Both the position numbers and the translations under genes were made by a program. Shown piece after piece: positions 31,203 through 37,762 of a stretch of DNA of 39,553 bases. Origin of the DNA: Actinomycetes bacterium. GTDB taxonomy: Bacteria; Actinomycetota; Acidimicrobiia; Acidimicrobiales; UBA8190. The notes beneath the pieces are model-generated. The model did not search any database. It worked only from the letters and a program-made list of their open reading frames with translations, and had not been told where the DNA came from. Within the stretch, counting starts at the first letter, position 1. Each line of letters starts with the position of its first letter. The DNA is taken from assembly GCA_021826725.1 (NCBI GenBank), contig JAKAYQ010000006.1, positions 1-39,553 on the forward strand, read 5' to 3'.

Positions 31203-31438
31203 ACCGCCCCTGTCGCACCTGGACCCGCCCCACCGGCCCTGCCCCACCCTGCCCCGCTCGGCCCAACCGACCCGCTGCGCACCGCACGGCTTGGGTCCCG
31301 GGTCCTACAGCCCTACCGGGACCCGCCCTTCCCCGCCTGGACCCGCCCTGCTCAGCACCGCTCGGCTTGGTTCCCGAGCAGGAATCGCGTCGCGTGACAC
31401 CGTCTCGTTCAGCGTCGGCTGGCCCTGTCGTCGAGGTT

Positions 31439-31471
31439 TGTCCACAGACTCGTGCACAGGTTGTGGATCAC
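31439..31471. promoter_or_regulatory. Two DnaA-box-like sites in inverted orientation: TTGTCCACA (+, 31439-31447) and TGATCCACA (minus strand, within 31462-31471)
   Basis: Each has one mismatch to TTATCCACA; lie in the cwlM/parB convergent gap. Confidence 0.5.
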
Positions 31472-31492
31472 GTCCACCTACGATTTAGCGTA

Positions 31493-31518
31493 AGATGACC
31501 ACCGAGCGTGGTATCTTG
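31493..31518. other. Inverted repeat AAGATGACCAC-CGAGC-GTGGTATCTT
   Basis: 10-bp stem with one bulged base, between convergent cwlM and parB. Confidence 0.55.
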
Positions 31519-31624
31519 CTGGGCATATGTCCGGCTTATCCTCGTTGCACCACAAATCGTGGCCAAATTGGCCCGTCATTTCGTCAACGCTCGATCCTGT
31601 GGTGGAGATCGACCTGAACATCCC

Positions 31625-32602
31625 TCACCGTCCACCTCCGCCAACCATGAGCTTGTAGATGCGCTCCAGGTCTTCGAGCGTCGCGAAGTCGACCAGTACG
31701 CGACCATGACGTCCCCCCATCTCGACCTTCACCCGAGTATTGAGGTAGGTGGCCAAGAGCTCCTCGAGCTCAAGCACGCCCGGAGCCGGCAAGCGACGAT
31801 GCACCACGTCGGCTCCAGAAGATCCGGCCGACGATGCGGTTCCCCCATCAGGCGCTGTGGCCGAACGAACCGCTGCCCCGGCTTCAACCACATCGACCAC
31901 CTCGGGACCGTCCTCCAGCAGTTCGCCCGGCTCCGGCTGCATGCGCTGCCGGACCAGCGTCTCGACAGCGCGCACCGTCAGGCCGTTGGCGACGATCTCC
32001 TTTACCATGGACTCTTGCCACGCCCGGTCCGGCGTTCCGAGCAGTGCGCGCGCATGACCGGCGCTTAGGGTTCCTTCGGCCAGGGCGCGCTGCACGCCCG
32101 GTGGAAGCTGCAACAGCCGGAGGGTGTTGGTCACGGCAACACGGCTCTTGCCGACCCGGGTAGCAACCTGATCGTGCGTGTAGTTGAACTCGTCGATCAG
32201 CTGCTGGTACGCCGACGCCTCCTCGATCGGGTTGAGATCCTCGCGATGGAGGTTCTCCACGAGCGCCTGCTCCAGGCTGTGCAGGTCGTCGGCAGTCTGC
32301 ACGAGCACACGGATCGTCTGGTGTCCGGCCCGTCGAGCCGCGCGCCAGCGCCGCTCCCCAGCGATGAGCTCGAACTGCTCCGACCCGACCTCACGTACAA
32401 GGACCGGCTGCAAGACGCCAAGCTCACGGATCGAGGCGGCCAGCGATGCCATCGACTCCTCGTCGAAGTGCTGGCGCGGCTGGTACGGATTGGGGCGAAC
32501 ACTGGCAATGGGAACCTCTCGCAACCCTGACCGGCGATCCCCCGACGCCTCAGTGGGGATGAGCGCACTCAGCCCCTTGCCCAGACCACTACGGCGTGCC
32601 AC
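31625..32602 (-). CDS. parB: Chromosome partitioning protein ParB
   Basis: RRSGLGKGLSALIPTE...VPIASVRPNPYQPRQHFDEESMASLAASIRELGVLQPVLVR...ELIAGERRWRAARRAGHQTIRVLV...LVENLHREDLNPIEEA...GTLSAGHARALLG. Confidence 0.97.
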   Translation of the reverse strand: MARRSGLGKGLSALIPTEASGDRRSGLREVPIASVRPNPYQPRQHFDEESMASLAASIRELGVLQPVLVREVGSEQFELIAGERRWRAARRAGHQTIRVLVQTADDLHSLEQALVENLHREDLNPIEEASAYQQLIDEFNYTHDQVATRVGKSRVAVTNTLRLLQLPPGVQRALAEGTLSAGHARALLGTPDRAWQESMVKEIVANGLTVRAVETLVRQRMQPEPGELLEDGPEVVDVVEAGAAVRSATAPDGGTASSAGSSGADVVHRRLPAPGVLELEELLATYLNTRVKVEMGGRHGRVLVDFATLEDLERIYKLMVGGGGR

Positions 32603-33980
32603 CGCTGACCTCCTTCGCCAGCTCTCGGTAGGCAATCGCCCCGCGGGAGCTCGGATCGAACACAGTGATCGGCTGCCCGAACGACGGCGCCTCGGATATC
32701 CGGACAGTCCTCGGGATGATGTTCCGGCACACTTTGTTCCCGAAGTGCCGGCGAACCTCCTCTGCCACTTGTTCGGCGAGCTTCGTCCGAGCGTCGTACA
32801 TCGTCAGCACGATCGTGGTCACCTCCAAGCCCTCGTTCAGGTTCGACTGGACCAGGTGCACGTTGCGCAGGAGCTGCCCGAGCCCTTCGAGCGCGTAGTA
32901 CTCGCACTGGATCGGCACCAGGACCTCGGCTGCCGCTGCCAGCCCGTTGACCGTGATCAGGCCGAGCGACGGCGGGCAGTCGATCATGACGAAGTCGAAG
33001 TCCTCGATGACTGACTCGAGCGCCTTCCGCAAGCGCAGTTCACGGCTGAACGTCGGTACCAACTCGATCTCGGCACCCGCCAGGTCGATGGTCGCCGGTG
33101 CAACGAACAGGTTCTTCAGGCTGGTCGGCTCGATGCAGTCTTCCAACGCGGCTTCCCGCATGATCACGTCGTACATCGACAGCTCGAAGTTCCTGCCATC
33201 GATCCCGAGCCCCGTCGTCGCGTTTCCCTGCGGATCGAGGTCGACGACCAGCACGCGATACCCCAATTCCGCCAGCCCGGCGCCGAGATTGACTGCGGTC
33301 GTCGTCTTGCCGACCCCGCCCTTCTGATTGGCGATGGCCATGATGCGAGGCGTGGGCCGCGGGATGTAGGCACCGTATGTCACACCATCCTCGACAGCAG
33401 GATCTTCGGCGGCGACTGCTGTCTCGCCGGGCACTCCGACAACCTCGCGTTCGGCATCAACCTCGGCGGCGGCTACAGCGAAGACCTTGTCGGAACCGCC
33501 ACCACCAGGGCGATCGACGACGGAGGGAGCGTCCTCCGGGGCGTCCTCCGGGGCGTCCTCCGGGGCGTCCTCCGTCCCTCTTTCCTCGTCAACCAGGTCG
33601 GCGCTGTCGCGCTCGGCGCTCGCCGCAGTGCCGATCTCCGCCGCGGTTTCGGTATCGACCACCTGCGAGCGCTGGTTGCTCGCGGAAATGGCGGCTGCGG
33701 CCACCTCGTCGGGCGCACTCAGCGCTCCGCCTCCAGCCACACCATCCCCGCCGGACGGTCCCGCGTCGCCGTGCAACAGCGCTGGACCAGAACCGTCGTC
33801 TGCCGGGTGGCCCGCCGGATGCTCCGAGTCGGTCATGCGTTCCCCGCGACCGGCGGACCCTGGTGAAGACAACTGATCGGCTGCTGCAGACCTTGGGTGG
33901 GCAGCTGCCTTCCCCGGAGCAGCGGGACCGCTGGGCGGGCGGATCGGGCTCGTGATCCGAGCTCTCCTGCGTTTCGCCAC
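32589..33980 (-). CDS. parA: Chromosome partitioning ATPase ParA with long acidic N-terminal extension
   Basis: RIMAIANQKGGVGKTTTAVNLGAGLAELGYRVLVVDLDPQGNATTGLGI...; GTG 33980 with upstream GGAGGA; overlaps parB start. Confidence 0.95.
   Translation of the reverse strand: MAKRRRARITSPIRPPSGPAAPGKAAAHPRSAAADQLSSPGSAGRGERMTDSEHPAGHPADDGSGPALLHGDAGPSGGDGVAGGGALSAPDEVAAAAISASNQRSQVVDTETAAEIGTAASAERDSADLVDEERGTEDAPEDAPEDAPEDAPSVVDRPGGGGSDKVFAVAAAEVDAEREVVGVPGETAVAAEDPAVEDGVTYGAYIPRPTPRIMAIANQKGGVGKTTTAVNLGAGLAELGYRVLVVDLDPQGNATTGLGIDGRNFELSMYDVIMREAALEDCIEPTSLKNLFVAPATIDLAGAEIELVPTFSRELRLRKALESVIEDFDFVMIDCPPSLGLITVNGLAAAAEVLVPIQCEYYALEGLGQLLRNVHLVQSNLNEGLEVTTIVLTMYDARTKLAEQVAEEVRRHFGNKVCRNIIPRTVRISEAPSFGQPITVFDPSSRGAIAYRELAKEVSGGTP
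33530..33577. repeat. 12-bp tandem repeat GCGTCCTCCGGG (about 4 units, last degenerate) inside parA
   Basis: Encodes EDAPEDAPEDAPEDAP in the ParA N-terminal extension. Confidence 0.92.
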
Positions 33981-34640
33981 GACGACTCCTCCATAGTGGT
34001 GCGGTCCCGTGAACCGGTGGGGTCGAGATCGGTCCGCGACCGACGACCACCCAGAGCCGGCCGACGTGCCCGAGGCCGAGACCATGCCCGTCGAACCCTA
34101 TCGCACCACGGCGTGCTCCAACCTCCTCCCGCACATCACGATCGCAGACGATGTCTGGTCACTGTCGGACCGCCGGCCAGCCGTCGGGGACGGCGACCGC
34201 TCCTCTACGCGATGCACATCAGGGCCCCGCCTCGTTGTCGCGACACCTGTGCTGAGCTGCGGCGACGTCCGGACCCGCATCTGCGAACGCCCGTGCCGCC
34301 GGCGATGTTGTCGACTGTTCTGCGATGCGCGTGGGGCAGTGCCTTGTGTACTGGACTGGTCGGCGGCTGTCCGCGAGGAAACGGGGCGGGGATGGCACGT
34401 GGCTCGGGGTTCGGGCTGGGCCTGAAAGAATGAGAAAACGACTGAACGCGGGCACTGGGGGACAGACGGAGCGATTGGCCGAACGGGGGACCGGAAGCAG
34501 AACCGGGGGAGCCTTTGGAGACGAACGGATGACCACTGAGGACGCGGGCCTCGAACGACGACGGAGATCCAGAGCGGAACGGTTCCCCGGCCCCAGACCA
34601 CGAATCGACCCCGGTGGCGTCCAACCGTGAACGCATCCGA

Positions 34641-34656
34641 CGTTCCACGTGGAACA
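34641..34656. promoter_or_regulatory. parS site 1: CGTTCCACGTGGAACA
   Basis: Near-match to TGTTTCACGTGAAACA, core GTTCCACGTGGAAC is a perfect palindrome; 0.7 kb upstream of parA. Confidence 0.88.
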
Positions 34657-34922
34657 CTTCGGTACCGATCTCTCAGAGGTGCGGCGGCGGGATCCCCCAC
34701 CAGCCGGCCACACGCATTGTGCAAGTCGAGAACCATGGTCGTCGTGACGACGCCATCCGGCTCTCCCTTCGCTTGCGACGGCCTTGACGCAACCGCGCCT
34801 GCCGAATGCGGCAGCGGACGGCCCGAAGCGTTCCGATTGGCTCCAGCGTCGAAGCAGCCAACCATCGACGTACCGCACGACCCGCGTGTGCGCACGAGGA
34901 GCTCCGGTGTGTACCTGGATCT

Positions 34923-34938
34923 TGTTCCACGTGAAACA
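34923..34938. promoter_or_regulatory. parS site 2: TGTTCCACGTGAAACA
   Basis: One mismatch to canonical TGTTTCACGTGAAACA. Confidence 0.93.
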
Positions 34939-35547
34939 CTCCGAACGTCGAACACGAGCCTCCCGCAGTCCCGCCCTTCACGTGGCGCACACCGCTCGAA
35001 CCCAGCAGCACACGGAAGCGGTGACGAGTCCAGAAGCAACGCACAACCGAGTGCTCCCCTCCGAGCTCGTTGGCCTTCTTTCAGCCGAAGCTCGCGGCAA
35101 GACGGAGATTCCTGGTTGAGTTGGGTCAACGACATCGGAAGAAGTACCGTGCGACCGGCGCCAGTTCGTGAAAGACGCGGCAATCGCCGTACCATGAATA
35201 AGCAGGTAGAGGTCGTGCAACATCCGCTGCAGGCGAACCGCGTGGCGCGAAAGCCGCCCGACGACGAGCGATGCAGTGTCCACCAGACGGGGCGGGCGGC
35301 TCGCGGCGCCCAGTGCAACGGCGCCTGCAGCTGAGCCTGGAACCGGCCGACCCGCCCCCGAACCCCTCCCGGACCGCACGAAGTACCGCGCCACGCCTCG
35401 ATGCGATGTGCTGCGTCGTGCCCCCTCTGAAGACCGGCAAACCGTACCGACCCGAACCCTTCCGAGCATTCGGTGCACATGGTGTGGACCGCTGGCCTCG
35501 GGAAGATCACCCGCGCAAACCAACATCAGGGTGCCTGGCTCCGTGCG

Positions 35548-36345
35548 TCAGCCCCCGTGCGCCACCGGCACGACACGGTAGAGCGGTCGCTTGGTCGCAA
35601 TACCAACTCGGCGCGGGTACCGCTCCGGGCACAAACGGTCCTGCTGCAGCACGGTGAGGTGGACCGGGGACTGCACCGTTCGAACCGGCCGCAGGCCCAG
35701 CTCCCCAAGCGCGTCGACCGGCCACCGCCCAGGATCCTCATCGGGAGGCTCGGATACCACCAGGACACCACCGACCTGCAGAAAGGGGGCCGCGCACTCC
35801 GCCGTGACCGGCGGCGGACCGAACGAGCGGGCAACGACGACGCCGAACTCCCCGCGGAGCTGCGGATCCCTACCGGCGACCTCGGCCCGAGCGCAGACGA
35901 CCGCGACGGCTGCGCCCAGGCAACACGCTTCGATGGCCTGCTCCAGCAGTGCACATCGCCGGTGGGCACTGTCGAGGAGCACCATCGGGCGACCGGGCCA
36001 CCGGTGCGCGAGAACCAGTCCTGGAAGTCCACCGCCCGATCCCAGGTCGAGCACCGGGCTCGTCGCCGCGGAACCGCCCAGCTCCTCCACGATGTCGCCG
36101 AAGCTCCAGGCGTGCCGAATCTGGTCCGCCAGGGGACGGTCACCGAAGACGCCGAGCGTCCGTGCACGCGCCACGGCCTCCCACAACGCGGGAGCCTGCT
36201 CAGGCGAAATTCTGGGGTCGCCATCCCATCCCTGCCGCGGGAGCATCCCCTCGGGCACGGCACCCACCACCCCTGCAGGTGAACCCGCCGGAAGACCGAC
36301 CGAACCCGGTGACTTCTCCGGCTCGGGGTTCACGTGGCCGGTCAT
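35548..36345 (-). CDS. rsmG: 16S rRNA m7G527 methyltransferase RsmG (GidB)
   Basis: DRPLADQIRHAWSFGDIVEEL...PVLDLGSGGGLPGLVLAHRWPGRPMVLLDSAHRRCALLEQAI...VVVARSFGPPPVTAECAAPFLQVGGVLVVSEPP; synteny. Confidence 0.92.
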   Translation of the reverse strand: MTGHVNPEPEKSPGSVGLPAGSPAGVVGAVPEGMLPRQGWDGDPRISPEQAPALWEAVARARTLGVFGDRPLADQIRHAWSFGDIVEELGGSAATSPVLDLGSGGGLPGLVLAHRWPGRPMVLLDSAHRRCALLEQAIEACCLGAAVAVVCARAEVAGRDPQLRGEFGVVVARSFGPPPVTAECAAPFLQVGGVLVVSEPPDEDPGRWPVDALGELGLRPVRTVQSPVHLTVLQQDRLCPERYPRRVGIATKRPLYRVVPVAHGG

Positions 36346-36394
36346 ACCCACTCCCACTCGAGCATCGCTTGCGGCGATGCCGAGCCGGACGAGC

Positions 36395-37762
36395 TCAGCC
36401 CTGACCGCCGTCGACCGGCGCGAGCACGATATGGCGCCGCGGGTCCTCGCCCTCGGAGCGGGTGACCACGCCCTCGATGCCGTTGACGGTGTCGTGGACG
36501 ACCTTGCGGTCTGCGGCCGACATCGGCTCGAGCGCCTTGGCCGTGCCGCTGGCGAGCACCTCATCGGCGACGCCCTGCGTAAACCGCTGCAGAGCCTCTA
36601 CCCGCTTGGCGCGGTACCCGGCGACATCGACAAGGATCCGGTCGCTCTGCCCACCCGTGATCTTCTGCACATAGGTCCGAGTGAGCTCCTGCAGCGCGGC
36701 GAGCGTCGTCCCACCAGGTCCGACCAGGGTCCCGAGCCCTTCGCCGTCGACGTCGACCGAAACCGTGTCCTCAGCGGTCTCCCGGATCGCCACGGAAGCT
36801 CGCAGGCCCAGCCTGTCCACCAGGCCTTCCACAAAGATACGGGCGGCGTCGCCCTGCTCCTGCAGCGTCATCTCGCCCACGGGGTCCTCCTTCTGGGCGC
36901 CGTACGACGGCGCCCGCTCTTCATCATCCACTACCGACGTGCCCACATCCTGCAATGCCGGGTTGCTCGTCGCTCCGGCGGACGCCGTCTTCTCGGCACC
37001 GCCGGCACCCGGGGTGGCCCGCCCCGATCGCCGGGCTCGTGGTGCGCCCGAGGCTGCCGTCTCCATGGGAGATTCGTCTGTGCTTCCATCGGCCGAGCCG
37101 CTGCTCGCCGAATTCCTGCTTGCCGGAGCACCTGATCCCGGGGAACCGGCGCTCTCGCCCGGTTCACCACCGGCCGCTGACCCGTCGCCAGCCCCGCCAC
37201 GTCCACGACCTCCACGGCGACGCGTCCGGCTGCCACCGGCCGCCGGCGGCGTCGGATCGTCCGTCTCCGCACCTTCGGCTTCCCCCGTGCCTGCCGCCAC
37301 GTCTCGGTCGCCGGCTTCAGGAGCCGCCGGCTCCGCCCCTGCTGCTTTCCGGTCCTGCGACCGTCCAGCTGCACTCCGAGACCCCCCGGTGCGTGCCCGA
37401 GACCGCGGAGCACTGCTGCCACTCGCTGCCGTCTCTTCGCCACCGCCGTCGCTCCCCGGCGTGGTGTCATCCGCGTTGCTGTCGTCGGCGCGTCCGCCAC
37501 TTCCCGACCCTCGCTCGCCTGACCCACTCCGAGTCCGACCGTTGCTTCCGCCCGACCGCCGCTCCCGACCGCGCTTCGGCCGAGCCTGCACCGGCCGGAC
37601 CCGGGCCCGGACCCGCGCCTCACCACGCATACGGCCGAACAGGCCAGGCTTGGGCTCGCTCACCACCACGAATTCAGCGTCGGTCTCGTCCACACCGAGC
37701 TGGTCCAGCGCGGCATCCTTGGCTTCCACCAGGGTCCGACCGGTCGTCTCTACCCACTCCAT
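36395..37762 (-). CDS. Jag/KhpB RNA-binding protein (Jag_N, long disordered linker, KH-R3H)
   Basis: MEWVETTGRTLVEAKDAALDQLGVDETDAEFVVVSEPKPGLFGRMRGEARVRARV...FVEGLVDRLGLRASVAIRETAEDTVSVDVDGEGLGTLVGPGGTTLAALQELTRTYVQ...ILVDVAGYRAKRVEALQRFTQGVADEVLASG. Confidence 0.94.
   Translation of the reverse strand: MEWVETTGRTLVEAKDAALDQLGVDETDAEFVVVSEPKPGLFGRMRGEARVRARVRPVQARPKRGRERRSGGSNGRTRSGSGERGSGSGGRADDSNADDTTPGSDGGGEETAASGSSAPRSRARTGGSRSAAGRSQDRKAAGAEPAAPEAGDRDVAAGTGEAEGAETDDPTPPAAGGSRTRRRGGRGRGGAGDGSAAGGEPGESAGSPGSGAPASRNSASSGSADGSTDESPMETAASGAPRARRSGRATPGAGGAEKTASAGATSNPALQDVGTSVVDDEERAPSYGAQKEDPVGEMTLQEQGDAARIFVEGLVDRLGLRASVAIRETAEDTVSVDVDGEGLGTLVGPGGTTLAALQELTRTYVQKITGGQSDRILVDVAGYRAKRVEALQRFTQGVADEVLASGTAKALEPMSAADRKVVHDTVNGIEGVVTRSEGEDPRRHIVLAPVDGGQG

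Follow-up and report, generated by a model that had tools for sequence, protein, structure and literature searches.

A parS pair in the rsmG-parA interval as the predicted ParABS centromere of a member of the Acidimicrobiales

Introduction

Which function resides in a gap of about 1.5 kb between rsmG and parA that carries two parS palindromes and no obvious gene? The window addressed here is a stretch of 39,553 nucleotides and represents the entire contig C226 of a 3.33-Mb assembly (84% complete, 313 contigs) of an uncultured actinobacterium of the order Acidimicrobiales. Towards the right end of the window the genes are arranged on the minus strand in the order yidC-jag-rsmG-gap-parA-parB, and yidC-jag-rsmG-parA-parB represents the usual origin-side cluster in actinobacteria. 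The original prediction regarded the gap as a dedicated platform for ParB loading, which might in addition encode an RNA or constitute architectural DNA. Our analysis indicates that the gap is very probably an ordinary chromosomal ParABS centromere, i.e. a parS pair just upstream of parAB and near oriC, to which ParB is predicted to bind.

Results and discussion

Limits of the gap and flanking genes

The gap extends from the rsmG stop (35548) to the parA start (GTG at 33980) and comprises 1567 bp (Table 1). These limits follow from the parA start, which is fixed by a conserved Shine-Dalgarno sequence and GTG (GGAGGAG-tcgtc-GTG) kept in two other genomes of the genus; the residues VAKRRR encoded after the GTG and the purine-rich Shine-Dalgarno are likewise common to three genomes of the genus. 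A longer parA ORF reaching to 34085 was rejected as a gene, because the nearer congener G001 has in-frame stops upstream of the GTG. Thus, the parA start assumed previously was correct. According to a crude codon-usage gene call, no other unassigned interval of the contig is as long: the gap measures 1462 bp if counted from the over-long parA ORF, and the next intervals 1318 and 821 bp. The lower GC content is genuine, but the difference is small and not peculiar to the gap: in 500-bp windows, 63-68% GC was determined for the gap, 63-66% for parA/parB and ~70% elsewhere.

Table 1. Features of the rsmG-parA-parB region. Positions refer to the window.
Feature	Position	Strand	Evidence
parB (336 aa), overlaps parA	31625..32635	-	TIGR00180 ParB/RepB/Spo0J above cut-off; PDB Spo0J 1vz0 2e-56, ParB 6t1f 1.5e-53
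parA (463 aa), GTG start; deviant Walker ATPase, N-terminal extension long and variable	32589..33980	-	Pfam AAA_31 1.6e-64, CbiA; start by conservation
Intergenic non-coding gap, parA start to rsmG stop	33981..35547	.	Conserved parA start and Shine-Dalgarno; negative ORF coding scores (-7 to -66 bits); substitutions without codon-phase bias
Conserved block upstream of parA, GGTGCGATAGGGTTCGACGGGCATG	34085..34115	-	Kept in G001, largely in G002
Element A, one copy of a dispersed 84-nt intergenic repeat	34234..34315	-	Matches: own genome 6, G001 8, G003 2
parS site 1, CGTTCCACGTGGAACA	34641..34656	.	Exact GTTYCACGTGRAAC; G001 counterpart conserved with ~12 flanking bases on one side
parS site 2, TGTTCCACGTGAAACA	34923..34938	.	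Exact match; G001 counterpart identical across the 14-mer core
Element B, fragment that occurs twice in the G001 genome, outside its gap	35053..35141	+	Within the 447-bp block missing from the gap of G001
rsmG (gidB) ORF	35548..36564	-	Pfam GidB 6e-17

Judged by family and structure-sequence comparison, both ParA and ParB are complete. Besides its AAA_31 match, ParA carries the deviant Walker A motif KGGVGKTT. Residues 14-238 of ParB align to Spo0J/ParB structures and the GERR motif is present, i.e. the features for CTP binding and the helix-turn-helix are both found; family matches and helix-turn-helix region are those of chromosomal ParB/Spo0J. The nearest ParB relatives are encoded by MAGs labelled Actinomycetes, Acidimicrobiaceae or Acidimicrobiales. 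Identity as Noc was rejected (TIGR04285 yields 227 bits versus a cut-off of 315), and no NBS sites (ATTTCCCGGGAAAT) were detectable in the window at up to 3 mismatches. Two side observations concern the flanking genes: The N-terminal extension of ParA (33400-33980) is unusually long (~200 aa), variable and probably disordered, and diverges between the window genome and G001 to nearly the same degree at every codon position (identity 0.82/0.80/0.77). The true start of rsmG is probably located further downstream than the ORF indicates.

The gap carries the only exact parS sites of the assembly

Both 16-bp palindromes in the gap are of the TGTTNCACGTGAAACA type, and their 14-mer cores (34642-34655 and 34924-34937; 282 bp apart) match GTTYCACGTGRAAC with 0 mismatches. 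No further exact match exists in the whole assembly, while a control scan with the reversed motif gave 0 exact matches. By chance, ~0.02 exact 14-mers are expected per 3.3 Mb, as estimated from base composition, as compared to the two found, both of which lie within 1.6 kb. Two more matches on unrelated contigs were obtained when one mismatch was allowed, but these were regarded as background because the reversed control also yielded one. A scan restricted to the window at 0-3 mismatches retrieved 2 sites versus 0.67 expected and is not significant by itself. The pair of palindromes noted originally is thus confirmed, and the genome-wide scan assigns both exact sites of the 84%-complete assembly to the gap, which is probably the main or only parS locus of the chromosome. 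The missing part of the genome may carry further sites.

The rsmG-parA interval carries parS across the order

Relatives were addressed in two samples, one comprising 31 genomes of the order that span 15 families and one comprising 148 evenly drawn genomes of the order. In the smaller sample, 20 of the 31 genomes possess exact parS sites, 43 in total, and for 42 of these the distance to the parA stop, measured upstream, is 0.8-3.9 kb. G017 is the single exception, with parA at the broken edge of its contig. It is this shared address, at most 4 kb from the parA stop on its upstream side, that argues for an ordinary ParABS centromere. The view of the gap as a ParB-loading locus is accordingly strengthened by sequence comparison, i.e. 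by the exclusivity of the sites in the assembly and the 42/43 sites at the same address. In the larger sample, exact sites were found in 117/148 genomes, and two is the commonest count (0 sites, 31 genomes; 1, 35; 2, 55; 3, 11; 4, 11; 5, 4; 6, 1). Several zero-site genomes belonging to the family of the window organism retain near-matches in the rsmG-parA interval. The third genus member, G002, has the parS pair and a recognizable parA leader, while it aligns poorly elsewhere. Paired sites are 26 to 2239 bp apart among the relatives.

Proximity of parS to oriC was observed in relatives G001, G018, G022 and G048. In G001, dnaA is located ~5.5 kb from parS on one contig, and in G018 and G048, each a single contig, parS lies at one terminus of the sequence and dnaA at the other, which is what a circular chromosome linearized at dnaA should give. 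As the dnaA gene of the window genome resides on a different contig, the oriC distance is inferred from G001. The gap itself does not look like oriC, as no DnaA box (TTRTCCACA, up to 1 mismatch) is present within 33981-35547. Elsewhere, in the interval following parB (31203-31624), which separates convergent genes, two DnaA boxes are present: an exact one (31438-31446) and, on the other strand, one with a single mismatch (31462-31470); the total number of DnaA boxes in the window is near chance.

The gap is non-coding and most of it diverges rapidly

Open reading frames are present in the gap, the one named previously being 34098-35510 (470 aa), and 1.5 kb without assignment leave room for a conserved RNA or small protein, to which the parS sites would be incidental. 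Several findings speak against this option. Coding scores are negative for every ORF in the gap (-65.7 bits for 34098-35510), and neither Pfam, NCBIfam nor PHROG returned a protein family above cut-off. Alignment of 34098-35510 with G001 gave identities of 0.67-0.68 at each codon phase, i.e. equal divergence at all three phases, and divergence of the gap exceeds the synonymous level. These data bear out the earlier statements that the gap is non-coding and that its long ORFs are not protein-like. The proposed RNA, in contrast, found no backing: An Rfam scan of the gap detected no family at gathering score, the best match being a sub-threshold SAH riboswitch (E 0.69), and the folding energy equals that of shuffled sequence (mean z +0.19). 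No tRNA or tmRNA was found, and terminator and promoter scans remained at chance level, with the sigma-70 scan detecting no promoter. Altogether, we give next to no credence to a conserved RNA or small protein.

Comparison with G001 revealed where the gap is conserved. Identity is 88% for rsmG and 95% for the parA core, but 70% for the gap. Conserved islands are confined to the parS sites, whose cores share 27/28 bases against a background of 68%, and to the 200 bp preceding parA, including the block GGTGCGATAGGGTTCG, which resembles an actinobacterial -10 region. The block at 34085..34115 is a probable -10/start region of the parA promoter. Apart from parS and the parA leader, the gap shows 68% identity versus 75% at fourfold-degenerate sites of rsmG; its bulk thus evolves faster than synonymous sites. 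In addition, a 447-bp block of the gap is absent from G001. From the negative coding and RNA tests, this missing block and the repeat fragments (elements A and B, Table 1) we conclude that the bulk of the gap is shaped by mutation, insertion and deletion. Element A was taken as a sequence repeat because consensus folding was unfavorable: its interpretation as structured RNA was rejected, as only two double-change pairs, many broken pairs and a positive (unfavorable) covariation term were obtained. Its copies are mostly intergenic, often just downstream of a gene, and were not detected in the other 28 sampled genomes.

The idea that the whole 1.5 kb serves as a dedicated architectural element is not supported, given divergence beyond the fourfold level and the absence of 447 bp in G001. 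Moreover, the relatives have intervals between 24 bp and 3.3 kb, and many manage with 24-700 bp; because gene starts were picked automatically, single values are approximate and a few are incorrect. Hence, parS and the parA leader are the conserved portions of the gap, whereas the remaining sequence and the gap length are not conserved. Gaps exceeding 1 kb occur at 9 of ~40 loci, including the single-contig genome G018 (3.3 kb, five sites); the 1.57-kb gap of the window is therefore long but not unique. It might be imagined that several Acidimicrobiales lineages widened this interval to 1-3 kb and that selection keeps it gene-free. If true, the widened gap would provide a dedicated, transcription-poor platform for ParB loading, where clamps could slide between spaced parS sites and beyond them with no RNA polymerase in their way. 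We consider this scenario doubtful.

A further alternative concerns the role of the sites. They are located 0.66-0.96 kb upstream of parA, and control of par-region promoters by ParB-parS has been proposed in mycobacteria (PMC2346475). The two sites could therefore mainly serve ParB-dependent autoregulation of parAB, with the centromere residing elsewhere. However, the assembly contains no other exact parS, at least 520 bp separate the sites from the conserved promoter-like block, and among relatives parS may lie anywhere from inside parA to ~3 kb away from it. A mainly regulatory role is thus very unlikely, although the sites may regulate parAB in addition to centromere function.

Proposed function and comparison with known systems

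In characterized systems, ParB is loaded at parS in the form of a CTP clamp, from where it slides for kilobases, and ParA moves it (PMC8494293, PMC5815017, PMC7022226). For the centromere proposed here, the two parS sites would serve as loading points for ParB dimers, which would turn into closed, CTP-bound clamps and slide across the flanking few kilobases; the resulting complex would be moved by ParA for segregation and would probably load SMC. Being 282 bp apart, the two sites could act as one loading center covering parAB and rsmG. The parA promoter and leader aside, the remainder of the 1.5 kb would represent a mostly unconstrained spacer whose length has changed in both directions through insertions and deletions. 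Most relatives have a shorter gap, and the spacer reading assigns the extra length to drift. A single origin-proximal parS is enough in some bacteria (PMC7022226), while it gives defects in others (PMC5815017). Two sites are therefore a plausible complete set for the window organism.

The mycobacterial ParABS system is alike in its jag-gidB-parA-parB order near oriC, the same parS sequence and the small number of sites (2-3; PMC2346475; PMC7022226, Table 1). However, gidB and parA overlap in mycobacteria and two sites are located upstream of gidB and within parA (PMC2346475), whereas those of Acidimicrobiales reside in the rsmG-parA gap. Streptomyces coelicolor and Corynebacterium glutamicum likewise have origin-proximal parS and a ParB of this family, but S. 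coelicolor possesses 21 sites and C. glutamicum 10 (PMC7022226, Table 1), as compared to two in the window genome. Caulobacter crescentus shares few clustered sites, ~8 kb from the origin, with ParB spreading ~2 kb per site; it differs by having at least five sites, which lie inside essential or costly genes (PMC5815017) rather than in a gene-free gap.

We thus regard the locus as the normal centromere of this group rather than as a novel element. A partial literature search by titles retrieved no paper that deals with parS in Acidimicrobiales or places it in the rsmG-parA interval. What appears modestly new, as judged from the genomes compared, is that this interval represents the centromere address of Acidimicrobiales, usually with 1-2 sites. 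This supplies a centromere address for a large, mostly uncultured actinobacterial order and shows that the position of parS within the jag-rsmG-parA-parB cluster differs from that published for mycobacteria. With usually 1-2 parS in a predictable interval, these would be minimal centromeres suited to test how few ParB-loading sites suffice.

Insertions in the rsmG-parA interval

Finally, a gene or mobile element could have inserted at the centromere and decayed, leaving the extra length of the gap; this would complement rather than compete with the centromere reading. Dispersed-repeat fragments within the gap and the ORFs inserted at this position in other lineages are in line with this possibility. 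On the other hand, no recognizable gene remnant is left: the endonuclease-like protein described below has no significant match in the window, and a phage DNA collection gave no match. We hold this origin to be possible, yet somewhat unlikely.

Five family members carry a conserved gene of ~130-170 aa (MATELEQGILVGLLVGEGHFGGDG...) in the rsmG-parA interval, namely at L034 (G010), L036 (G013), L037 (G015), L039 (G008) and at G006:C38:126117-126443. It was found by gap-versus-gap tblastx, which is noisy at high GC and was used solely for this purpose. The product is LAGLIDADG-like by eye and gave a weak PHROG HNH-endonuclease match (E 0.009) and no Pfam match. The same five genomes are devoid of exact parS and have merely near-matches in the interval, with one variant half-site; they may form one clade, and the association of the endonuclease-like gene with the lack of exact parS may therefore reflect a single event. 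L069 contains a possible transposase-like fragment (by eye, no Pfam match) between its two parS sites, and in its close relative L066 the gap is ~1 kb shorter.
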